From positions 1-34,740 of the forward strand of contig JAJZXF010000021.1 of NCBI GenBank assembly GCA_021802485.1: DNA of 34,740 nucleotides, in the 5' to 3' direction. Every line of letters starts with the position of its first letter. Position 1 is the stretch's first letter. Source of the stretch: Actinomycetes bacterium. Lineage in GTDB: Bacteria; Actinomycetota; Acidimicrobiia; Acidimicrobiales; JAJZXF01. The notes under the pieces are model-generated. The model was given only the letters and a program-made list of their open reading frames with translations, made no database searches and was not told the origin of the DNA. Below, piece after piece: positions 11,030 through 34,554 of the stretch. Made by a program: the position numbers and the translations under genes.

Positions 11030-12439
11030 CTATCCCTTCCGATCTGCGATGTTCAAGTCGAAGGTGGTGTGCGTGTCGTCGTCCCAGCCGTCCCACAGGT
11101 ATGCTTCCTCGCGCCCATCTGCGATGAGGCGCATTGCGTAGCGAGCCTGCTCCTGGTAAAAGCCACAGAACGCTCCTCGATGCAGGCTGTCGCCTGCAAG
11201 TTCATGTGCTTCGGCGGGGCAGGGAGCGCCACAGAAGTGGCGAAAGGCGCAGTGCTCGCACGGTTCGATCATCTCGACGCCGCGTTGCGTGACGGAGCGG
11301 AAGGCGCTGGTGTCGAAGCAGTGCTGAAGGTCGCCGCTGAAGATGTTGCCGCCTTTGAAGCCTTCGATGCCGATGAACTCACTACAGGGGAAGAGAGCTC
11401 CGTGTGCATCGACAGCGAAGAAGCAACGGCCGCCGCCACACGGGGAGATGTCGCACATGAGACGCCGCGCGGTTGGTGCAACGATTGCAAGTAAGATATT
11501 TGCGAAGTTCGCGACTATCAGCTTGCGTCCGGTCTCCAGGTACAGCTGGTAGCTGCGATCGAGAGCCCGCGTGTACGCTGCTGCTAGATCGAGGTCTGAA
11601 GGACGAACTCGCCTGCCCCCGTCCAGGGTGCACCGCACCGGGTTCAGCATGCAGGTGGGCACCTCCAGACTGTGGAGGAGTTCCACCATGCGGGTAAGAT
11701 GCTCGAGGTTCTCTGATGTAGCGGTGCATATAACCGAGTAGCTTTCGTAGCCGCGCAAGGAATCGAGAGCCTTGAGCACCCGGTCGTGTACGCTATGTCC
11801 TGAGAAGGTGTGCCGAGTGCGGTCCGTTATCTCGGCAAGCGGACCGTCAAGGGAAAGGCCGATGCTCACCTGTCGCGAGGTCAGGAACTCGATTGCTCCG
11901 TCGTCGAGGAGCGTTCCGTTCGTCTGGATTCCGAACACGAAGTCTTCACCGAAGTGGTCTATCGCCGTAAAGATGGCTTTCCGGTTCATAAGAGGTTCGG
12001 AGCCATGGAAGATCACCTGCGGTCGGTCATTGGCAGGCATCGTCGGGTGGAAGAAGTCGCGAAGTGTCTCAAGTGCCCGGAACAGGTCGTCTCGTGACAT
12101 GTGAATCCCGTGCCTGCGCATTGCTTCTGGCAGGTAGCAATAGGTGCAGTTGAGATTGCATCGTTCAGTCGGGTTGAAGTAAACCGCCGACGGCGTGAGG
12201 CCATACCGCAGGGTCTCCATCTCTGTTGCAAACTCATGCGCATGCTCTCGTACCATTTCCAGGAAGGCCGGATCGCAGATCAAATCTGCAAGCCGGTTCT
12301 TCTTGACGAGAGACCAGAACGCAGTGTCTGGCTCGACCAGAGCGATGTACTTCTCGTGGCCGATGTCCAGTGGTGCGAGCACTGGTCCATCACCGGCATT
12401 GGCCCGCGGCATATCGCGCTTGGCGGCGAGGTTGCTCAT
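11030..12439 (-). CDS. Peptide-modifying radical SAM/SPASM enzyme (CbpB-like)
   Basis: The protein (469 residues from ATG 12439) has a classic radical-SAM CxxxCxxC site, CNLNCTYC at Cys94/98/101, preceded by VYFNPTER. The core continues with QVIFHGSEPLMN and FGIQTNGTLL. The C-terminal SPASM region carries Cys-rich auxiliary-cluster motifs: CDISPCGGGRCFFAVDAHG, FPCSEF and CEHCAFRHFCGAPC. Such enzymes install thioether, C-C or similar crosslinks on ribosomal peptides. The gene lies immediately downstream of a 75-codon peptide gene; the frame is open back to a TTG at 12499 that overlaps the peptide stop, so translational coupling with that TTG start is possible. From memory the pair resembles the NCBI families 'CbpB' and 'CbpA'; an HMM search is needed to confirm. 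No iron-sulphur residue appears missing. Confidence 0.85.
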   Translation of the reverse strand: MSNLAAKRDMPRANAGDGPVLAPLDIGHEKYIALVEPDTAFWSLVKKNRLADLICDPAFLEMVREHAHEFATEMETLRYGLTPSAVYFNPTERCNLNCTYCYLPEAMRRHGIHMSRDDLFRALETLRDFFHPTMPANDRPQVIFHGSEPLMNRKAIFTAIDHFGEDFVFGIQTNGTLLDDGAIEFLTSRQVSIGLSLDGPLAEITDRTRHTFSGHSVHDRVLKALDSLRGYESYSVICTATSENLEHLTRMVELLHSLEVPTCMLNPVRCTLDGGRRVRPSDLDLAAAYTRALDRSYQLYLETGRKLIVANFANILLAIVAPTARRLMCDISPCGGGRCFFAVDAHGALFPCSEFIGIEGFKGGNIFSGDLQHCFDTSAFRSVTQRGVEMIEPCEHCAFRHFCGAPCPAEAHELAGDSLHRGAFCGFYQEQARYAMRLIADGREEAYLWDGWDDDTHTTFDLNIADRKG

Positions 12440-12495
12440 CGGTGGGTGTTGACCACTGCGACCGCCTGGGGTTTGCAGCTTGCCGAACGGTGCGC

Positions 12496-12723
12496 TCAAG
12501 AGCTGGTGGTCGTCAGCTGCTGGCTTTCCTCGCGGGCCGGCTGGTTTTGCGCAGCCCCGGGCTTGCCAGCACCGTCGACCAGCTTGCGCTGTGCCTCAAG
12601 ACTTTTCATCTCAACGGATCCATCGCGCTGTGCCCGCGTCAAGAGCACGTAGTGTGACAGACCGGTTCCGCTCGCCCGGCAGGTCTTGCGATATGAGATC
12701 ACTTCGGGTCGCTCAGATGTCAC
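12496..12723 (-). CDS. Small peptide, probable RiPP-type precursor of the radical SAM enzyme (CbpA-like)
   Basis: This 75-residue frame starts at GTG 12723 behind a strong AAAGGAG five bases upstream. The N-terminal third reads EVISYRKTCRASGTGLSHYV followed by LLTR: a compact block with one Cys, paired Tyr and a GTGLSHY motif. The remaining 50 residues are hydrophilic and low-complexity (Gln, Glu, Ser, Thr rich). It is directly upstream of, and abuts, the radical-SAM/SPASM gene on the same strand, the usual layout of a peptide precursor and its maturase. The core matches my recollection of the CbpA modified-peptide family. If so, the conserved block rather than the C-terminus may be what is modified, which is unlike leader-core RiPPs. 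The modification and role are unknown. Confidence 0.75.
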   Translation of the reverse strand: MTSERPEVISYRKTCRASGTGLSHYVLLTRAQRDGSVEMKSLEAQRKLVDGAGKPGAAQNQPAREESQQLTTTSS

Positions 12724-12816
12724 AGGTTCTCCTTTTATATACTCAAGCTAGTAACAAACGATACTATGTGTATAAACCTCAAGTTATCGCTTCGGGCATG
12801 AAACTATCACGGAGGT
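12724..12816. promoter_or_regulatory. AT-rich divergent promoter region with a TAGTA-N8-TACTA dyad
   Basis: Between the peptide gene and the helicase gene lies a stretch noticeably richer in A/T than its surroundings. It contains candidate -10 hexamers on the minus strand (TAGTAT, TATAAA) and an inverted repeat TAGTA-N8-TACTA at 12749-12766 that could be an operator. I cannot pair a good -35 with any of the -10 candidates, so exact promoters are unresolved. Confidence 0.4.
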
Positions 12817-12847
12817 CCCCCGGCTGGCATGGTGTGCCAGCCGGGGG
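12817..12847 (+). promoter_or_regulatory. Perfect 13-bp hairpin spanning the helicase ribosome binding site
   Basis: CCCCCGGCTGGCA (12817-12829), loop TGGTG, and TGCCAGCCGGGGG (12835-12847) form a perfect stem. The right arm supplies the GGGGGAG ribosome binding site of ATG 12856, and the left arm overlaps the alternative ATG 12829. There is no T-run, so it is not a standard terminator for plus-strand transcription. Translational masking of the helicase start is the simplest reading. Confidence 0.6.
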
Positions 12848-12855
12848 AGCGGCCC

Positions 12856-15800
12856 ATGCAACTGATGGACCCCGCGGCTAACGTTTGGCGAATGACGGCT
12901 GTTCTGAGTGAAGAATGCGACCTGCGGTCTGGTGAGGCGCAGGAGGAGGGCGGCCTTTCCCGAGACGAGCGCTCTGACGACGGGTGGCTAAGGGATCTCT
13001 TCGGTTACGAGGCGACCTTCATTCCCGGCGACCCCCCGAGAACGGGCCGCTTCGCTCTCTTTCAGGCAAGCGCCCCGGTTAGGCGTGCTATCTCACCTGA
13101 CGCGCTCCGGGCGAGAACCGGTGCCGTTGTGGACGAGCTGGAGGTAATCTTTCCGGCGGGGCGAACGGTTCGCCGGAGAATCGTAAGCGCTCTTTTTCTC
13201 TCGGTCGACGAGGCATTGCCGTTGCTGCTAGGGATCGACCGGGACTCCGCGGCCGCAAGCGTCATAGCGTGGTCGACGACGCTCACCGCGGGCCTCGGGC
13301 TGATCGCCCGTGGGCGGATCATTCCCGCAGTGACTCCCGGAGGGCATGATGGATGGAGGACAGGACCCCTCGACCCTGGTGACAATCGTCTCTTGGAAGC
13401 GCTTGCGGCTGCCCTCCCTCCAGTAGCCTTTGCACTGAGGCTTGATGGGCGCTCCCCACTCAGACTCCGTTCACCTGCAGTGCTCATCCGCTCTGTTTGG
13501 GACGCGCTCGCGGATGTCCTGCCACGATCCCCGGCTGCCCCTTTGATCGCCGGCACACCGCTGTTCAGTGCCAGCGAGCCCCAAGACGCAGCGGGTCTGG
13601 AGGCCTGGCTCGCGGAGGCAGGTCGGGGGCTCGAGGGTGGAGCCCAGGTTGCCCTGCGGGTCGAGCTTGACAACAGCCCTGCGGTGCAAGAAGCTCTGGA
13701 GCGACCGGAGGGCGAATCCGGCACGGCCGTGGAATTGGCGAGCGCTGCTCGCGACGGTTCCGCTTTGGTAGCGGCTGGGCAGGAGAGTTCGGCCCGGGCG
13801 ACTCTGCAGCTTACGAGTCGCGCTGATCCTAGCCTCGTCGTAGACGCCCGCGATCTCTTTGCCTCGCCAGCAGCAGTGCTTGCCCGATTCGGGGACGATG
13901 CTGAGACGGACCTTCTTCTCGCGTTACGGCGTGGCGCCAGGGCATGGAAGCCGCTTGAATCCCTACTGCGGGAGCGAGTACCCGGCGACCTCGCACTTGG
14001 AGATGACGACGTCGCGGATCTTCTGGGTGACGGTGCAGCAGCTCTCCAGGGGGCCGGGATCGAGGTGCTCTGGCCAACCGAGATCGTCACCGATGGGCTT
14101 GCGCTCCGTGCTGCAGTAACTGCGGCGCCCGGCGCTGTGGTCTCCGCGGGGCTGGACCTCAAGACCCTGCTTGAGTTCCGCTGGCAGGTTACGCTCGCTG
14201 GCGAGCTGCTCACCGATGATGAACTTGACCAGTTGGCGGAGGCAAAGCGGGGCCTCGTGCGCATCCGCGGCAGGTGGATTGCGGCCGATCCCGCTCTGCT
14301 CGCCCGCCTCCGCCGCCGCCGTTCACGGCGCCTCAGCATGGCAGAGGCACTTGGTGCTCTCCTCGCAGGTGAGATCGAGATCGACGGGGAACGGGTGCCG
14401 ATCGTGGCTGGCGGTTCGGTTGCCACCATCGCTGACCGTCTCCGATCTCTGGCGGATACGAGTTCTGTGGATCTTCCGGCCCCGCCAGGGCTCGCGGCGG
14501 AGTTGCGTCCCTACCAGCAGCGCGGGGTCGCCTGGTTGCACCAGATGTGTGAGCTGCGGATCGGGGGGTGCCTGGCGGATGATATGGGTCTCGGTAAGAC
14601 GATCCAGGTTATAGCGCTTCACCTCCACCGCAAGGCCTCCAAGGCGGGACCGACGCTTGTGATTTGCCCGACCTCGCTTCTTGGGAACTGGGAGCGTGAG
14701 TTGCACAGGTTCGCACCAGGGGTGCCGGTGCGGCGCTATCACGGTGGCGGGCGCCATCTCGATGAGATAGCAGCGGACGAGGTTGTCCTTGCCACCTACG
14801 GCGTCGTGCGCCGAGACCATAGCGAGCTCGCGGGGGCCGGCTTCTCACTTGTTGTCGCTGATGAGGCCCAGCAGGCGAAGAACCCACTTTCTGGCACTGC
14901 GCGGGCACTTCGGGCGATCCCGGCCGAAGTGCGTATAGCACTCTCGGGCACGCCGGTCGAGAATCGTCTCACCGAGCTGTGGTCCATTCTCGATTGGACT
15001 ACGCCTGGGCTTCTCGGTCCACTGGAGCGGTTTCGACGCACCGTGGCGCTTCCGATCGAACGCTACCGCGACCCTGCGGAGACAGAGCGGCTGGCAAACG
15101 TGGTTCGGCCGTTCCTCTTGAGAAGGCGAAAGACCGATCCCGCGATTGCGCCGGACCTGCCGCCGCGGACCGTTACGGACCACGCTGTAGCGCTAAGCAT
15201 CGAGCAGACGACGCTGTACGAGGCGGAAGTGCGCGAGGCTCTTTCCGCTATAGCAGCAGCGGAAGGCATGGAGCGTCGTGGCCTCGTCCTGCGTTTGCTT
15301 ACGGTGCTGAAGCAGATCTGCAACCACCCAGCTCAGTACCTGCACCAGCCTGGCCCGCTCTCAGGCCGGTCTGGCAAGCTCGCGGCCCTTGAGGACCTTA
15401 TCGAGGTCATTCTCGCGGAGAAGGAGTCGATCCTCGTCTTCAGCCAGTACGTCGAGATGTGCTCCCTGATAGAAGCTCGTCTCGCAGCGCTTGGCGTTGC
15501 GACCGTCTTTCTGCATGGCGGTGTGCCGGCGAAGAAGCGTGACGAGATGGTTGCAGCGTTCCAAGCGGGTGAAGCGCCGATCTTCCTCCTGTCCCTCAAA
15601 GCCGGTGGGCTGGGGCTGAACCTCACGAAGGCGACGCATGTCGTGCACTACGACCGCTGGTGGAACCCCGCTGTCGAAGACCAAGCGACCGACCGTGCTC
15701 ACCGTATCGGCCAGAAGCGCTCGGTGCAGGTCCATCGCTTCGTTGCGGAGGGAACCCTTGAGGATCGCATCGCGGAGCTACTCGAACGGAAACGCTCCCT

Positions 15801-15894
15801 TGCTGAGGCCGTGATCGGGGAGGGAGAGGCGTGGCTTACGGAGCTCTCGGATGACCAGCTAGCGGAGTTGGTCCGGCTCGGAGGCGGCGAATGA
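12856..15894 (+). CDS. SNF2-family DEAD/DEAH-type ATPase (bacterial Swi2/Snf2 helicase-like)
   Basis: The C-terminal half has all SNF2 motifs in order: CLADDMGLGKTIQVIAL (I), LVICPTSLLGNWERELHRFA (Ia), VVADEAQQAKN (II), ALSGTPVENRLTELWSILDW (III), ILVFSQYVEMCSLIEARLAA (IV), LLSLKAGGLGLNLTKATHVV (V) and DQATDRAHRIGQ (VI). The N-terminal 500 residues match the layout of the helicase-associated domain of actinobacterial SNF2 proteins. It is an ATP-driven double-stranded-DNA translocase by family, usually linked to transcription recycling or repair. At 1012 residues (ATG 12856) the length is normal. ATG 12829 is an alternative start; its GGAGG lies 13 bases away, while GGGGGAG lies eight bases before 12856. 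The stop overlaps the next start as ATGA. Confidence 0.93.
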   Translation: MQLMDPAANVWRMTAVLSEECDLRSGEAQEEGGLSRDERSDDGWLRDLFGYEATFIPGDPPRTGRFALFQASAPVRRAISPDALRARTGAVVDELEVIFPAGRTVRRRIVSALFLSVDEALPLLLGIDRDSAAASVIAWSTTLTAGLGLIARGRIIPAVTPGGHDGWRTGPLDPGDNRLLEALAAALPPVAFALRLDGRSPLRLRSPAVLIRSVWDALADVLPRSPAAPLIAGTPLFSASEPQDAAGLEAWLAEAGRGLEGGAQVALRVELDNSPAVQEALERPEGESGTAVELASAARDGSALVAAGQESSARATLQLTSRADPSLVVDARDLFASPAAVLARFGDDAETDLLLALRRGARAWKPLESLLRERVPGDLALGDDDVADLLGDGAAALQGAGIEVLWPTEIVTDGLALRAAVTAAPGAVVSAGLDLKTLLEFRWQVTLAGELLTDDELDQLAEAKRGLVRIRGRWIAADPALLARLRRRRSRRLSMAEALGALLAGEIEIDGERVPIVAGGSVATIADRLRSLADTSSVDLPAPPGLAAELRPYQQRGVAWLHQMCELRIGGCLADDMGLGKTIQVIALHLHRKASKAGPTLVICPTSLLGNWERELHRFAPGVPVRRYHGGGRHLDEIAADEVVLATYGVVRRDHSELAGAGFSLVVADEAQQAKNPLSGTARALRAIPAEVRIALSGTPVENRLTELWSILDWTTPGLLGPLERFRRTVALPIERYRDPAETERLANVVRPFLLRRRKTDPAIAPDLPPRTVTDHAVALSIEQTTLYEAEVREALSAIAAAEGMERRGLVLRLLTVLKQICNHPAQYLHQPGPLSGRSGKLAALEDLIEVILAEKESILVFSQYVEMCSLIEARLAALGVATVFLHGGVPAKKRDEMVAAFQAGEAPIFLLSLKAGGLGLNLTKATHVVHYDRWWNPAVEDQATDRAHRIGQKRSVQVHRFVAEGTLEDRIAELLERKRSLAEAVIGEGEAWLTELSDDQLAELVRLGGGE

Positions 15895-17201
15895 GCGCTT
15901 TCAGCAGGAGGCGCTCTGGGCAGGATCGAGGCGACCACTGGTGGCCCGAGTCTGCTGCTCGGCGCCCCGGCAAAGGACCAAAAAGGGCGCAAGGCCGGCG
16001 TGGTTTTGGCAGCACCTGGTGGGGCACTGCATGGGTGGACGCTCTCGAACAGCGTGCACGGCTCGATCCGAACCGGCTTCCGCGCGGACGGACCTATGCG
16101 CGCTCCGGAGCAGTGGAAGGAATCGAGGTCCTTGTGGGAGAGGTTCTCGCGTCCGTGCAGGGTTCCCGCGCGAAGCCATACGACGTTCGGGTCAGGGTGA
16201 GAACCTTCACGGTGGATGAATGGGACCGTGTCCTTGACGCTCTGGCTGAGCAGATTGGGCACTCCGCAGCTCTCATGGATGGAGAGCTGCCGCCTGAGGT
16301 AGCAGATGACGTCCGTTCTGTCGGGCTTGATCTCCTGCCAGGGGCAGGCGAGGTCCAACCTCGCTGCTCGTGCCCGGACTGGGCGGATCCATGCAAGCAC
16401 TCTGCTGCTGTGTGCTACCTGGTGGCTGATGAGCTCGACAAGGACCCTTTCGTCCTGTTTCTCCTGCGTGGTCGCGATCGCAAAGAGCTGCTTTCCGGCC
16501 TCCGGGCTCGCCGGGGACAGCTCCGTGAGGCTGAATCGCCTGGGAAGGCGCCGAGTGACTGGGGCGTCGACGATGGGATCCTTGCTCGCGAAGCATGGGA
16601 GCGCGAGCCCGTTCCGTTTCCGAGCGTTCCGTTGCCACCGCGACGGCCGGGACGGCCAACGGTGCTCGCGGTCGATCCTCCGGAGTGGAGCGGGCTTCAA
16701 GCAGAGACGATGCAGGGCCTAGCTGCTGATGCAGCGTCGCGCGCCTGGTTGTTAGCTGTGGGCCAGCGGAGCACGGTAAGCGACCTCTCGCTCGACGAGG
16801 ATTTTGCTCGCCGTGCCGCGGAACTGCTAGATGTCCCAGAAGGCACCACGATGCGAGGCGGGAACGCGAGGGGCGGGGTTCAGCTCGAGGACCTCGCGCG
16901 CGCTGCGGGAATTACCCAGCGTGACCTCCTGCGCCGCGCACTAGCCTGGCAAGCCGGTGGAGCGGGCGGGCTTGTCGCGCTTGTCGATACTTGGGATGCA
17001 ATGCCAGCCGAACTGGAGGCCGGTAGGGCCTTCTTGGGATCTGGAACCAGGGCCCGCAAGAATCGGCTGACCAACGGGGATCGCCAGCTTCGCCTGGGAA
17101 AGGATGGTAAGTGGTATCCGTTCCGCAGGGCCCGCGGTGCTGATTGGGATCCCGACGGGCCGCCAATGGAATTGAATGGCTTGTCCGACCCGCCGGGTTA
17201 A
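15891..17201 (+). CDS. SWIM zinc-finger protein, partner of the SNF2 ATPase
   Basis: The 436-residue protein contains CSCPDWADPCKHSAAVCYLV near residues 158-177, a SWIM zinc finger (CxC...CxH). The N-terminal FGSTWWGTAWVDALEQRA and GRTYARSGAVEGIEVLVGEV are typical of the actinobacterial SWIM proteins encoded directly after SNF2 helicases. SWIM fingers bind DNA or proteins, and the partner role is inferred from this recurring gene pair. The ATG overlaps the helicase stop by four bases, so the two are translationally coupled. The C-terminal half (VPEGTTMRGGNARGGVQLED and the basic tail) has no motif I recognise. It converges with the yceI gene 45 bases away. Confidence 0.88.
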   Translation: MSAFSRRRSGQDRGDHWWPESAARRPGKGPKRAQGRRGFGSTWWGTAWVDALEQRARLDPNRLPRGRTYARSGAVEGIEVLVGEVLASVQGSRAKPYDVRVRVRTFTVDEWDRVLDALAEQIGHSAALMDGELPPEVADDVRSVGLDLLPGAGEVQPRCSCPDWADPCKHSAAVCYLVADELDKDPFVLFLLRGRDRKELLSGLRARRGQLREAESPGKAPSDWGVDDGILAREAWEREPVPFPSVPLPPRRPGRPTVLAVDPPEWSGLQAETMQGLAADAASRAWLLAVGQRSTVSDLSLDEDFARRAAELLDVPEGTTMRGGNARGGVQLEDLARAAGITQRDLLRRALAWQAGGAGGLVALVDTWDAMPAELEAGRAFLGSGTRARKNRLTNGDRQLRLGKDGKWYPFRRARGADWDPDGPPMELNGLSDPPG

Positions 17202-23276: not shown

Positions 23277-25318
<2,042 letters not shown>

Positions 25319-25368
25319 TCAAATGTCAAATGCTTCCCCCTAGCGTTGCGGTTCCTTAAGTCTTGCAC

Positions 25369-29529: not shown

Positions 29530-29568
29530 TCGCTGGTGTTAGGGGTGGCAAACGGAGAAGGAGCCGTC

Positions 29569-30912
29569 TTGGGTGAGTCTCTCGCCGTCGTTGGCTTGAA
29601 CCAGCATGCGACATCGATCGATGTGTTCGAGCGCGCCACGCTGTCCGAGGATGCCCTTGCGAAGGCGCTCGAGACCCTATTGGAGCATCCTGAGGTGCGT
29701 GAAGCAGTAGTTCTGTCGACCTGTATGCGTACTGAGGTGTATGCGCTTGTTGACCGTTTCCACGAGGGCGTATCCCATATCTACGATTTTTTTGCGTACC
29801 TGTTGGGCTCCTCATTTACAGAGGTCTCCGACCTTCTCTATTGCAAGTACGAAGAGGCGGTTGCAGCGCATTTGTTCGAGGTGGCAGCGGGACTCGACTC
29901 ACCTGTTCTTGGCGAGGGAGAGGTGCTCGGCCAGGTGCGCCGTGCATGGGAGGTTGCCCACGCGCGAGGTGCGTCCGGGCAAGCGCTATCGAGTCTGTTT
30001 CGCCAGGCGGTCGTAGTGGGGAAACGAGTGCGGTCGGAGACGGCCATAGCAAGAGGGATAACCTCTCTTTCTCATGCTGCGGTCGCGCTCTGTTCAGATC
30101 AAGCAGCTGGGGGCCTTGCGGGCAAGCGGGTGCTACTGCTTGGGGCAGGCGCCATGGGGAAAGGTATGGCCTCTGCTTTGCGTTCTGAGATGCTCGCTGC
30201 AAGGAGCCCCGCGTCAACGCGAGCGCTCGACGCTGCGGGCATCGCGCACCCAGCAGAAGAAGGACTCTGCGCTGACGTGGTGGTTGTCAGCAGGACCACT
30301 GACCGCGCTGCAGAGCTTGCAGCGCAGATGGGGGCCCGTTGGAACAGCCTTGCCAAGCTCGATGACGAGCTCGAAAAGGCTGACATCGTTCTGGTCTCGG
30401 TGGCTACCCCCTCCTTTGTTCTGCACGAAGGCACGGTTCGAAAGGTTATGTCAGCGCGTTCTCACCAGCCCTTGCTCGTAGTGGATCTGGGGGTTCCACG
30501 AAACGTCGAATCGCATGTCGCACAGATTGACGGCGTAACCCTTATCGACTTGGACCGACTCCGGTCTTTTGTGAACGCGCAGATGGCCGGACGTGAGGCT
30601 GAGATCGATAGAGCGAGGGCCATGGTAGGCGAAGAGGTGGTTCGTCACAGGCTCGCGAGACGTGAGCGAGACGTTGCACCCCTTGTCGCTGCTCTGTACA
30701 AGAAAGCTGAGGAGATCCGCCGCTCGGAGATGGACCGTCACCGCCAGCGCATCGATGGTTTGGGTGAGCGAGAACGCGAGGTGCTCGAGTCGCTGACTCA
30801 GGCGATCGTGAGCAAGCTTCTCCACACGCCAGCGGTGAGGCTCAAGGAGGCCGGTCGGTCTGGATCGGCCGATCGGTTAGCAGAGGCGCTGCGTGATTTG
30901 TTCGACCTTTAG
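29569..30912 (+). CDS. hemA: Glutamyl-tRNA reductase
   Basis: HemA reduces glutamyl-tRNA to glutamate-1-semialdehyde, the first step of C5-pathway tetrapyrrole synthesis. From TTG 29569 (AAGGAG five bases upstream) it reads GESLAVVGLNQHATSIDVFE. The catalytic segment is LSTCMRTEVYA with Cys52. GLDSPVLGEGEVLGQVRRAW and VGKRVRSETAIARGITSLSH complete the catalytic domain. GKRVLLLGAGAMGKGM is the NADPH site, and the C-terminal helix carries the dimerisation region. Two features are unusual: Met53 replaces the usual Asn after the catalytic Cys, and about 20-25 extra residues (RSEMLAARSPASTRALDAAG) follow the NADPH-binding loop. GTG 29536 is an alternative start. It leads hemC, cobA-hemD and hemB. 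Confidence 0.95.
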   Translation: MGESLAVVGLNQHATSIDVFERATLSEDALAKALETLLEHPEVREAVVLSTCMRTEVYALVDRFHEGVSHIYDFFAYLLGSSFTEVSDLLYCKYEEAVAAHLFEVAAGLDSPVLGEGEVLGQVRRAWEVAHARGASGQALSSLFRQAVVVGKRVRSETAIARGITSLSHAAVALCSDQAAGGLAGKRVLLLGAGAMGKGMASALRSEMLAARSPASTRALDAAGIAHPAEEGLCADVVVVSRTTDRAAELAAQMGARWNSLAKLDDELEKADIVLVSVATPSFVLHEGTVRKVMSARSHQPLLVVDLGVPRNVESHVAQIDGVTLIDLDRLRSFVNAQMAGREAEIDRARAMVGEEVVRHRLARRERDVAPLVAALYKKAEEIRRSEMDRHRQRIDGLGEREREVLESLTQAIVSKLLHTPAVRLKEAGRSGSADRLAEALRDLFDL

Positions 30913-30962
30913 TTGTCCCGGGCGGTGAGCGGTGTCGCACTTCGCCTGGCCGGTAGTGGCCC

Positions 30963-31976
30963 ATGGTGCCTGCGATAATGCGTGATGAGGCTGTGGCGCG
31001 GCTTGCGACGAGAAAGAGCCCGCTTGCGCTCAAGCAGGCCGAGGAGGTAGCAGCCCTCCTGCAAGCAGCGACTCCTGGGATTGAAATAGAGCTGGTCACA
31101 GTCGATACTCAGGGCGACATCCGCACCGATCTGCCGCTTTCAGCACTGGGCGGCCAGGGGGTTTTTGCAAAGGAGGTCCAAGTCGCGCTTCTGCAGGGGC
31201 GAGCAGACTTTGCGGTCCACTCAGCGAAGGACCTTCCGGCTGTCACGCCGGAGCGCACTTGCATAGCTGCGGTCCCGCTGAGAGCTGACCCGCGCGACGC
31301 CTTGGTCGGCTCTCAGTTGGAGGACTTGCCACCTGGTGGGCTTGTAGCCACCGGATCCGTGCGAAGGAGGGCTCAACTGGCCTGGCTGAGGCCAGATCTA
31401 TGCTTCGCGGACCTGCGGGGAAGCATTGGCACGCGCCTCGCGAAAGCAGCGCATTTCGATGCAGTGGTGATCGCGTTCGCAGCGCTGGTCAGGCTGGGGC
31501 TCGAAAACTGCGCGGACGAGGTCTTGGCGCCGTCGATGATGTTGCCCCAGGTGGGTCAGGGAGCACTCGCGATCGAATGCCGCTCGGACGACGCCGCCGC
31601 GCGGGTACTTGCCGGGGGCATCGACCACATGCCCTCACGGGTGTCCGTCGAGGCCGAGAGAGCTTTCCTGCGCGAGATCGGCGGCACCTGTGACCTGCCG
31701 GTTGCGGGGAATGCAACGATGGACATAGCGAAGGAATCCGGCAATCCCGCAGGCAGCAAGGACGGTCGCAGCGGCATGTCGCTTGCCCTCGAAGGCCTTG
31801 TGGCGAGCCCCGACGGTCGGATCATGTTGAGGAAGGCTGCCGCGGTAGAACAGCCGATTCCGGCCAGCGTGGATGCCTGGGTGCTGCTCGCGAGGACGTT
31901 GGGCGAGGAGCTCGCTCGTTCCCTGATCGACGAGAATGGCGGCAACGCCCTTTTGGGAACCGCCGATGCGAGCTGA
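30963..31976 (+). CDS. hemC: Hydroxymethylbilane synthase (porphobilinogen deaminase)
   Basis: HemC joins four porphobilinogen units into hydroxymethylbilane. Visible motifs are ARLATRKSPLALKQAEEV, TQGDIRTDLPLSALGGQGVF, FAVHSAKDLPA, GSVRRRAQLAWLRPDL, RGSIGTRLAKAA and LPQVGQGALAIECR. The dipyrromethane-cofactor Cys lies in EIGGTCDLPVAG (Cys243 from ATG 30963). The catalytic Asp is in the HSAKDLP segment. ATG 30978 is an alternative start and neither has a clear ribosome binding site. It lies 50 bases after hemA, and its 3' end overlaps the cobA-hemD start by 11 bases. Confidence 0.96.
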   Translation: MVPAIMRDEAVARLATRKSPLALKQAEEVAALLQAATPGIEIELVTVDTQGDIRTDLPLSALGGQGVFAKEVQVALLQGRADFAVHSAKDLPAVTPERTCIAAVPLRADPRDALVGSQLEDLPPGGLVATGSVRRRAQLAWLRPDLCFADLRGSIGTRLAKAAHFDAVVIAFAALVRLGLENCADEVLAPSMMLPQVGQGALAIECRSDDAAARVLAGGIDHMPSRVSVEAERAFLREIGGTCDLPVAGNATMDIAKESGNPAGSKDGRSGMSLALEGLVASPDGRIMLRKAAAVEQPIPASVDAWVLLARTLGEELARSLIDENGGNALLGTADAS

Positions 31977-33543
31977 GTTGCCTAAGCCCGGAACTGTGTA
32001 CCTGGTGGGAGCGGGACCAGGGGATCCGGGCCTAATCACGCTCAGAGGTGCGGAGCTTCTTTCTCGTGCCGAAGTGGTCGTGCACGATCGGCTCGTTCAT
32101 CCGCGGCTGCTTTCGATGGCGCCTGGGTCAGCTGAGCTGATTGACGTCGGCAAGAAGCCCGGCGTGCCCTTTGACCAGGCCGAGATCAACGCTCTGCTTG
32201 TGTCTCAAGCGCGTCTTGGGCGCTGTGTTGTCCGCCTGAAGGGCGGCGATCCGTTCGTTCTCGGTCGGGGGGGTGAAGAGGCGCAAGCTCTGAAGAGTGC
32301 GGGAATTAGTTTTGAAGTTGTGCCGGGGATCACCTCAGCTCTGGCCGCGCCAGCGTTTGCGGGGGTGCCTGTCACCCACCGGGGAGTGTCGACGGGATTT
32401 ACGGTTCTCACGGGCCGTTCCGGGGAGTACAACACGGGTGAGCTGGACTGGGACGCGGCTGCGAAGCTTGGCGGGACCATCGTATTGCTAATGGCGGTGG
32501 CGAACCGCGAAGTGATCGCCGAGCGGCTGCTCGCGGCAGGCCGCGATCCCCTGACGCCGGTTATCGCGGTTGAATGGGGCACATGGGCTGCGCAGCGCAG
32601 CGTGAGAACGACCCTTGGCGGCCTCGCTGCCGCTGAGCTCTGTGCACCAGCGACTATCGTCATCGGCGATGTTGCGGCACTGGACCTTAGCTGGATCGAG
32701 CGCCGCCCGCTCTACGGATGGTCGATAGCTGTTACCAGGGATGTCGCTCAGGCTGGCGAGCTTTCCAATCGGCTCGCTGGTGCGGGAGCCGAGCCTATCC
32801 TCGTCCCGCTCTTGTCGATCGAGCCGTCCTCAGAGATGCTCAGGCAGCTCCGCGACGCTGCGGAGTCTCTCGGTTCATATGATTGGGTGGTCTTCACCTC
32901 GGCGAACTCGGTCGAGAGCTTCCTTGCTCATGTGCGGGATGCGCGAGCGTTTTCGGGCGCGAGGATTGCGGCCGTCGGCTCGGCGACTGCGGCCGCGTTG
33001 AAGAGACATAACCTGGTTGCAGACCTTGTTCCGCAAAGCTATTCAGCGAAGGATCTCGCCAGCGCTCTCGTCTCAGACGGGCGCGGCGAGGGTACTTCAC
33101 GGTTGCTTTTCCCACGCTCGGCGAGGGCGCGTGAGAACCTTGGCAACGCGTTGCGACAAGCGGGGTGGACGGTCGACGAGGTCGAAGCGTACCGCACCGA
33201 GCCCATCGTGCCGGACGCAAGCGGCCTTTCGGAGCTCGCGCGAGCAACAGCGATCACCTTCTGCTCCCCATCTGCGGTAGCTAGCTATGTAGAGCTGTTG
33301 CGTACCGGCATGCTTGCTTCGCCAGGGTCTGCGCTTGCGGGGTACGCCCGGGGCGATCGCAGCGAGGAGCCTAGACGGCAGATATTGGCTTGTATCGGCC
33401 CGACCACTGCAGATGCCGCGGCAGAAGAAGGCCTTGTGATCGACGTGGTTGCTAGATCCCATACTGTCGACGGTCTGGTCGATGCCCTTGTAGAGCGAGC
33501 GACACTCGCACCGAACGGTACCTTCCGAGCTGAGAGGCAATAG
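31966..33543 (+). CDS. cobA-hemD: Uroporphyrinogen-III C-methyltransferase / uroporphyrinogen-III synthase fusion
   Basis: The first half (about residues 1-250) is a SUMT/CobA methyltransferase: VYLVGAGPGDPGLITLRGAE, VVHDRLVH, GRCVVRLKGGDPFVLGRGGE, EVVPGITSALAAPAFAGVPV, THRG and VAVEWGTWAAQRS. It makes precorrin-2 from uroporphyrinogen III. The second half (about 260-525) is HemD: WSIAVTRDVAQAGELSNRLA, WVVFTSANSVESFLAHV, IAAVGSATAAALKRHNL and ITFCSPSAVASYVELL, which closes hydroxymethylbilane to uroporphyrinogen III. Fusion of both activities occurs in several bacterial lineages. The frame is open to 31936, but ATG 31966 (MRAELPKPGTVYLVG) fits the family start and overlaps the hemC stop. Confidence 0.95.
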   Translation: MRAELPKPGTVYLVGAGPGDPGLITLRGAELLSRAEVVVHDRLVHPRLLSMAPGSAELIDVGKKPGVPFDQAEINALLVSQARLGRCVVRLKGGDPFVLGRGGEEAQALKSAGISFEVVPGITSALAAPAFAGVPVTHRGVSTGFTVLTGRSGEYNTGELDWDAAAKLGGTIVLLMAVANREVIAERLLAAGRDPLTPVIAVEWGTWAAQRSVRTTLGGLAAAELCAPATIVIGDVAALDLSWIERRPLYGWSIAVTRDVAQAGELSNRLAGAGAEPILVPLLSIEPSSEMLRQLRDAAESLGSYDWVVFTSANSVESFLAHVRDARAFSGARIAAVGSATAAALKRHNLVADLVPQSYSAKDLASALVSDGRGEGTSRLLFPRSARARENLGNALRQAGWTVDEVEAYRTEPIVPDASGLSELARATAITFCSPSAVASYVELLRTGMLASPGSALAGYARGDRSEEPRRQILACIGPTTADAAAEEGLVIDVVARSHTVDGLVDALVERATLAPNGTFRAERQ

Positions 33544-33552
33544 ACTCTTGTC

Positions 33553-34554
33553 ATGAGCTTTCCAAGCTCCCGCCCCAGGCGCCTGCGGCGTTCTGAAGCC
33601 CTCAGGAACCTAGTGGCCGGCACCGCACTCGCGGTCGACGACCTCGTTGCCCCGCTTTTTATCAGGGAGGGGATTTCTGAACCCGAAGGCGTATCTTCGA
33701 TGCCAGGGGTATTGCAACACACGCTGTCCTCGCTGGTTGAGGAGGTCGAAGAGCTCATGGCGCTCGGAATCCGAGCGGTCATCCTCTTCGGAGTGCCTGA
33801 AGCCAAGGACCCGACCGGATCCGAAGCGAGAAGCCCTGATGGCATCGTTCAACGAGCGCTTTACCAGCTTCGCTCGAAGTTCGGAGATTCGCTGGTGTTA
33901 ATCGCGGACCTGTGCCTGGACGAGTTCACGGACCACGGCCACTGTGGTGTGATCGGCGAGGACGGAGGTGTCGACAATGATCCGACGCTGATGCTCTACG
34001 GCGAGATTGCGATTGCGCAGGCACGTGCGGGTGTCCATATGGTTGCACCGAGCGGCATGATGGATGGCCAGGTTGCCGCTGTGCGCTCGGCCCTTGACAG
34101 CGATGGTCACCAGGAGGTGGGAATACTTGCCTACTCGGCAAAGTACGCATCAGCGCTTTATGCACCATTCCGGGATGCCGCACAGGTGCGTATCGCTTCG
34201 AGCGAGACAGTTTGCGACCGAAGCACTTATCAGCAGGATCCTCGCAATGCAAGGGAGGCGTTGGTCGAGGTGGCTCTCGATGTGGAAGAGGGCGCTGACA
34301 TTATCATGGTGAAGCCCGCGATCGCTTATTTGGACGTGATAGCAGCGATCCGTGAAGCCGTAAATGTCCCGGTTGCGGCTTTTCAAGTGAGCGGCGAGTA
34401 CGCGATGATCCAGGCTGGTGCGCTCGCGGGCTGGATCGATGGCCCAGCGGTGATGCTTGAGCAGGTAACCGCGATCAAGCGAGCCGGAGCCGGCATAGTA
34501 CTTACTTACTTTGCCAAGGACCTTGCGAGGGCAATTGCACGGTCAACCACCTGA
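33553..34554 (+). CDS. hemB: Delta-aminolevulinic acid dehydratase (porphobilinogen synthase)
   Basis: HemB condenses two 5-aminolevulinate molecules to porphobilinogen. Family segments are RPRRLRRSEALRNLVAGTAL, DDLVAPLFIREGI, the metal region ADLCLDEFTDHGHCGVI, YGEIAIAQARAGVHMVAPSG, the first Schiff-base Lys in YSAKYASALYAPFRDA, and the second in DIIMVKPAIAYLDVI. The metal loop has Cys-x-Asp...Cys, as in many actinobacterial enzymes, rather than the three Cys of the E. coli zinc enzyme. Length (333) is normal. It follows cobA-hemD after nine bases and is the last gene of the operon. Confidence 0.97.
   Translation: MSFPSSRPRRLRRSEALRNLVAGTALAVDDLVAPLFIREGISEPEGVSSMPGVLQHTLSSLVEEVEELMALGIRAVILFGVPEAKDPTGSEARSPDGIVQRALYQLRSKFGDSLVLIADLCLDEFTDHGHCGVIGEDGGVDNDPTLMLYGEIAIAQARAGVHMVAPSGMMDGQVAAVRSALDSDGHQEVGILAYSAKYASALYAPFRDAAQVRIASSETVCDRSTYQQDPRNAREALVEVALDVEEGADIIMVKPAIAYLDVIAAIREAVNVPVAAFQVSGEYAMIQAGALAGWIDGPAVMLEQVTAIKRAGAGIVLTYFAKDLARAIARSTT

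Follow-up and report, generated by a model that had tools for sequence, protein, structure and literature searches.

The window analyzed here, a 34,740-nucleotide stretch of the genome of an actinobacterium of the order Acidimicrobiales, contains the gene pair cbpA and cbpB, whose features are collected in Table 1. The cbpA gene lies directly upstream of cbpB, with 56 nt between its stop codon and the cbpB ATG, and an AAAGGAG sequence ends 5 nt upstream of its GTG start codon. An initial annotation had described a 75-residue peptide with a strong ribosome binding site immediately upstream of a radical-SAM enzyme, and genes and site were found as described. The same annotation had likened the two genes to the CbpA and CbpB families of NCBI; when the NCBIfam models were run, both curated cut-offs were exceeded, by the peptide for TIGR04164 (44 bits against a cut-off of 35, E 1.1e-11) and by the enzyme for TIGR04163 (681 bits against 375, covering profile positions 1–428 of 428). 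A longer cbpB reading frame, starting from a TTG at 12499, is possible, but the homologues agree with the ATG.

Table 1. Features of the cbpAB locus, in positions of the window.
Feature	Position	Strand	Description
cbpB	11030..12439	minus	469-aa radical-SAM/SPASM protein, predicted peptide-modifying enzyme; ATG start; TIGR04163 match
CbpB residues 20-80	12200..12382	minus	predicted beta3-alpha3 N-terminal domain, RRE-like; from model secondary structure
cbpA	12496..12723	minus	75-aa precursor (MTSERPEVISYRKTCRASGTGLSHYVLL...); GTG start at 12723; TIGR04164 match
CbpA core block (VISYRKTCRASGTGLSHYVLL)	12640..12702	minus	residues 8-28; coordinates derived from the CbpA frame
CbpA C-terminal tail	12499..12639	minus	47 aa, low complexity, lineage-specific
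cbpA ribosome binding site region (AAAGGAGAACCT)	12724..12735	minus	read from the sequence

CbpB carries both the CX3CX2C motif (C94, C98, and C101) and the full SPASM region that had been attributed to it, the latter as a complete seven-cysteine pattern (C334-x12-G-x4-C352, C394-x2-C397-x5-C403-x3-C407, and C425), even though the Pfam SPASM model scored just below its cut-off (18.7 bits against 21.5). The cysteines of both motifs were invariant among 42 homologues, save C397 (at least 90%), and C263 and C270 were likewise invariant. In the AlphaFold model of the enzyme (pLDDT 82), the N-terminal stretch is predicted to adopt a beta3-alpha3 topology, which is that of the RRE peptide-recognition domain; nothing in Pfam scored above cut-off over this stretch.

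A scan of bacteria with one genome per species yielded 79 further CbpB loci, and in all 79 a homologous small peptide was encoded just upstream of cbpB, in the gene order of the window. The pairing is thus obligate, and cbpA–cbpB is a real two-gene system whose families were already named in NCBI. Two hallmarks of a RiPP pathway are thus present, a ribosomally made precursor in which a core is conserved and a dedicated enzyme predicted to modify it. We searched the literature for TIGR04163/4, for the CbpA/CbpB radical-SAM pair, and for a cobalamin-riboswitch RiPP, and found no paper. A phage origin of the pair was rejected (0 matches among 50,697 phage records), as was spread on plasmids, for which there was a single plasmid record.

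The core block of CbpA follows the consensus [AS]x-R-[KRQ]-x-C-x3-G-x-G-L-[SA]-H-Y. Across 81 loci (the 79 relatives, the window, and a congener) 83 blocks were compared, and R5, C8, G12, G14, L15, H17, and Y18 (core numbering) were invariant in all of them; the pattern by which the blocks were cut itself demanded C, G, G, L, [SA], H, and Y, and it returned a block from every locus, with none lost. Random substitution of the block among relatives, on which the initial annotation would have been abandoned, is therefore not what is seen. A codon-by-codon comparison of the 83 blocks found 2 to 6 synonymous codons at each of the seven invariant positions, pointing to strong constraint at the protein level. 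Lys6 and Ala3 were almost fixed, and position 10, two residues after the Cys, was occupied by Pro in 58 blocks, Ala in 22, and Thr in 3, and by nothing else. The blocks come from Actinomycetota, Pseudomonadota, Verrucomicrobiota, Omnitrophota, Nitrospirota, and Myxococcota, and the block, given the TIGR04164 E-value and its presence in all 79 relatives, is not due to chance. Beyond it, CbpA is not conserved among relatives. Since the core is invariant while the leader varies freely, the product is more probably a single constant compound that meets a constant partner, be it a metal, a cofactor, or a host protein, than a bacteriocin. In two gammaproteobacterial loci (L015 and L039) the block occurs twice in tandem inside one peptide, as in multi-core RiPP precursors.

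The conserved block of the window CbpA had been seen as N-terminal, with a low-complexity tail behind it, the reverse of a leader–core layout. This description holds for the window's genus but not for most relatives, in which only 3–6 residues follow the block, so that the ordinary leader-then-core order applies there; most other actinobacterial loci have 15–17 residues after it. Among the 81 loci, 47 residues behind the block were found in the window CbpA only, and the congener has a tail of comparable length and unrelated sequence. The long tail is a peculiarity of the window's genus, and it distinguishes that genus from other TIGR04164/TIGR04163 pairs, as does the lack of an upstream cobalamin riboswitch.

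The comparison of the 79 related loci, which is new here, ties cbpAB to B12 and cobalt metabolism. Of 28 related loci searched with Rfam, 22 had the cobalamin riboswitch RF00174 immediately before cbpA (60–138 bits, gathering threshold 31.5). A DNA profile built from these matches and run on all loci placed a cobalamin riboswitch on the same strand, at most 700 nt before cbpA, in 64 of the 79, with 65 to 321 nt between the end of the aptamer and the core. Thirteen of the 15 riboswitch-less relatives have cbpAB within B12-synthesis or cobalt-transport operons; the other two are a locus that ends at a contig edge (L010) and one without a B12 link (L025). Taken together, 77 of the 79 relatives have either the riboswitch or a B12/cobalt operon around cbpAB, a context that does not enter into NCBI's cut-off. 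The short names given to the families by NCBI, cobo_pep and rSAM_cobopep, suggest that the curators may have noticed a cobalamin link.

In Verrucomicrobiota the gene order of the operon is cobQ-cbiB-btuR-cbiA-cbiC-cbpA-cbpB-cbiM-cbiN-cbiQ-cbiO-cbiD-cbiE-cbiL, and in Omnitrophota and allies it is cobT-cobS-cobD-cobC-(AsnB-like)-cbpA-cbpB-(DUF71/Dph6-like)-btuF-btuC-btuD-btuR. Three loci (L013, L068, and L075) have a gene for a CbiM-like cobalt permease ahead of cbpAB and cbiX behind, and one form of the operon has the CbiM-like gene and cbiF on one side of the pair and cbiX on the other. Neighbors checked with Pfam were CbiM (two), CbiX, CbiC, CbiZ, CbiQ, CbiD, CobD, CobS, CobT, FecCD, Peripla_BP_2, BtuR, GATase_3/CbiA, and TP methylases; others were assigned by eye from clusters. 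On this evidence, we conclude that cbpA and cbpB are a known, functionally uncharacterized RiPP-type pair belonging to B12/cobalt metabolism.

Additional enzymes accompany the pair in some branches. An AsnB-like ATPase gene (PF00733) directly precedes cbpA in L016, L018, L045, L072, L074, and L077, where the pair belongs to B12 operons and the hosts are Omnitrophota, Nitrospirota, and a Syntrophaceae bin, and in most of these loci a DUF71/Dph6-like gene (PF01902) follows cbpB immediately. The two are possible further tailoring enzymes in that branch, and their confinement to it led us to reject them as constant partners. Five actinobacterial loci (L005, L006, L007, L011, and L012) have, about 1 kb or less downstream of cbpB, a second radical-SAM gene (MSVETPFVVMAKPIGPVCNLRC...) whose product clusters with CbpB and resembles a sulfatase maturase.

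Co-occurrence was assessed in 200 genomes from the family of Dechloromonas denitrificans, 19 of which encode CbpB. True CobD/CbiB (E below 1e-70), tallied by hand from a table, was present in 19 of 19 CbpB-positive genomes versus 126 of the 200 overall (one-sided p about 9e-5, a value that, like the next two, takes no account of shared ancestry). CbiD, which marks the early-cobalt pathway, was present in 14 of the 19 versus 45 of the other 181 (p about 4e-5, and about 0.01 inside CobD-positive genomes); since five CbpB-positive genomes lack it, cbpAB is not strictly tied to the anaerobic route.

We tentatively favor, with slightly less than even confidence, a reading in which cbpA and cbpB together form a RiPP-type cassette that belongs to B12 metabolism and whose modified core handles cobalt or a corrinoid. 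CbpB would recognize CbpA through its RRE-like N-terminal domain, and its SPASM radical-SAM site would make a single covalent change to the core R-K-x-C-x3-G-x-G-L-S-H-Y, most likely a thioether that joins the one invariant Cys to a backbone or side-chain carbon close by. After processing, the core would help to obtain, deliver, or insert cobalt or a corrinoid, either within the cell or as a chelator released from it, with Cys, His, and Tyr as candidate ligands. Cobalamin riboswitches turn expression off when B12 is plentiful, and in most relatives the peptide would be made under B12 scarcity; in the window's genus the riboswitch would have been lost or replaced and control exerted by other means. 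Cobalt or corrinoid handling is the leading guess because in one lineage cbpAB stands between the genes for cobalt import and chelation, and in a second it immediately precedes the cobalt importer; binding of either ligand by the CbpA core is a guess from this gene association. In a narrower version, which we consider rather doubtful, modified CbpA would be a cobaltophore or cobalt metallochaperone, made during B12 shortage and acting between CbiMNQO uptake and insertion by CbiX or CobN, and it would be the cobalt counterpart of methanobactin. A radical-SAM-modified peptide under B12 regulation would add a component to a pathway generally thought complete, and in its genomic context the hitherto anonymous RiPP pair poses a question that can be tested in culturable hosts such as Dechloromonas or Aromatoleum: does a modified peptide aid bacterial cobalt acquisition or insertion?

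The modified core might instead be a peptide-derived redox cofactor or an activator for an enzyme of the corrin pathway, rather than a ligand of metal or corrinoid. PqqA/PqqE and the mycofactocin pair MftA/MftC give rise to peptide-derived cofactors, and they share with cbpAB an invariant core, a variable leader, and a single radical-SAM/SPASM partner, a logic that fits a single product with a cytoplasmic partner. The neighborhoods of relatives show no conserved exporter or protease next to cbpAB, which leaves secretion or excision of the core without support; unlike PqqA/PqqE and MftA/MftC, moreover, cbpAB has no constant downstream protease or tailoring genes. The neighbors include corrin methylases, CbiC, and CbiD besides cobalt transport, and the copy on the Methylovirgula plasmid pHY1 (L122:5319-13753), which is without a cobalamin riboswitch, has pqqADE and another radical-SAM gene nearby. 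However, no pathway enzyme is always adjacent, the neighbors ranging from cobalt uptake to lower-ligand attachment, and we regard a cofactor or activator as unlikely.

As for the chemistry of our preferred cassette, a Foldseek search of the CbpB model against the PDB returned the thioether maturase CteB as the best match (E 1.4e-19, 452–470 columns; PDB 5wgg and 5why), with an RRE-like N-terminal domain and SPASM region shared, followed by anSME (PDB 4k36–4k39). The Aux I cysteine motif of CbpB, PCSEFIG, has the PCxxF spacing of PCHQFVG in CteB and departs from the PCD of anSME. The nearest fold and this motif make a thioether the first choice, and together with the single invariant Cys they suggest a Cys-to-carbon link in CbpA by analogy with the maturases of SCIFF peptides. 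SCIFF precursors have six cysteines, whereas CbpA has one, and the SCIFF maturase model (TIGR03974) gave CbpB 104 bits, below its cut-off of 425. PapB and DynA were among the next-best NCBIfam models; the ranthipeptide maturase PapB (NF047865) reached 136 bits against a cut-off of 340.

Two other modifications were weighed against the thioether. H17 and Y18 are both invariant, and several cyclophane-forming maturase families were secondary matches of CbpB, as would be expected if the enzyme made a carbon–carbon or cyclophane cross-link at the His–Tyr pair and left the Cys unused; but these families scored below PapB and DynA, the nearest fold is a thioether enzyme, and the core Cys is invariant too, which makes such a link quite improbable. 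Conversion of the Cys to formylglycine in the manner of anaerobic sulfatase maturases, giving an aldehyde-bearing peptide, would account for the likeness of C-x-[P/A/T]-x-G in the core to the sulfatase C-x-[P/A]-x-R, in which the substrate Cys is likewise followed by x-[P/A], and for the fold match to anSME, which is accompanied by a strong secondary family match (TIGR03942, 114 bits, below the cut-off of 349). The Asp that follows the Aux I Cys in anSME is catalytic. In CbpB it is replaced by a Ser that, like the next residue, Glu, is invariant in homologues; the Arg of the sulfatase motif is a Gly in the core; and CteB fits better than anSME, which lacks the N-terminal domain (the alignment begins at anSME residue 6 and CbpB residue 86). 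Formylglycine formation is thus very unlikely.

The window copy, like that on the Methylovirgula plasmid, is an exception to the B12 context of the family. At cbpA (12400–13300) the Rfam cobalamin families gave no match at E up to 10 and the DNA profile none, by which a hidden riboswitch was rejected; the whole genome contained zero matches to RF00174, and cbpAB has neither a riboswitch nor an adjoining B12 gene in the window or in the congener. The B12 link is therefore invisible in the window, and the host's B12 operon sits on another contig. Surveyed by family searches and in two stretches, that operon includes CobD, a CobC-like aminotransferase, CobQ, and a CobN-type chelatase (all but CobD assigned by eye), and B12-binding enzymes are present in the genome. 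In the tree, the window and congener copies, whose CbpB proteins are 75% identical, fall inside an actinobacterial clade (100/100) whose 11 other members are all riboswitch-linked, so that loss or replacement in the genus is the simple reading; the B12 role of the window pair would accordingly follow from orthology and not from local context. Recruitment of the pair in this genus to a role unrelated to B12, which the bare surroundings and the genus-specific long tail would fit, has only a slim chance of being right given the intact core, the place of CbpB in a riboswitch-linked clade, and the B12 genes that the genome keeps.

An imperfect palindrome in the cbpA promoter region (TAGTAACAAACGATACTA, 12749–12766), noticed by eye, is a possible operator in place of the lost riboswitch. 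Further upstream, between the divergent cbpA and SNF2-type helicase genes, stands an inverted repeat whose 14-bp arms match perfectly around a loop of 5 nt (12816–12848; TCCCCCGGCTGGCA / TGCCAGCCGGGGGA); it overlaps the first ATG of the helicase gene, which therefore probably starts later, and it was rejected as a repeated element, as the genome contains one copy. The SNF2-type helicase (12829–15894) and a SWIM-type protein (15891–17201) separate cbpA from a YceI-like gene, which immediately precedes cbpA in the congener (L082, L101), indicating that the helicase/SWIM pair was gained in the window or lost in the congener. Tetrapyrrole genes assigned by eye (hemA, hemC, a fused cobA/hemD-like gene, and hemB) occupy 29536–34554, about 17 kb from cbpAB, and an ordinary TPP riboswitch (RF00059, 57 bits, 25215–25323, minus strand) precedes a thiC-like gene.
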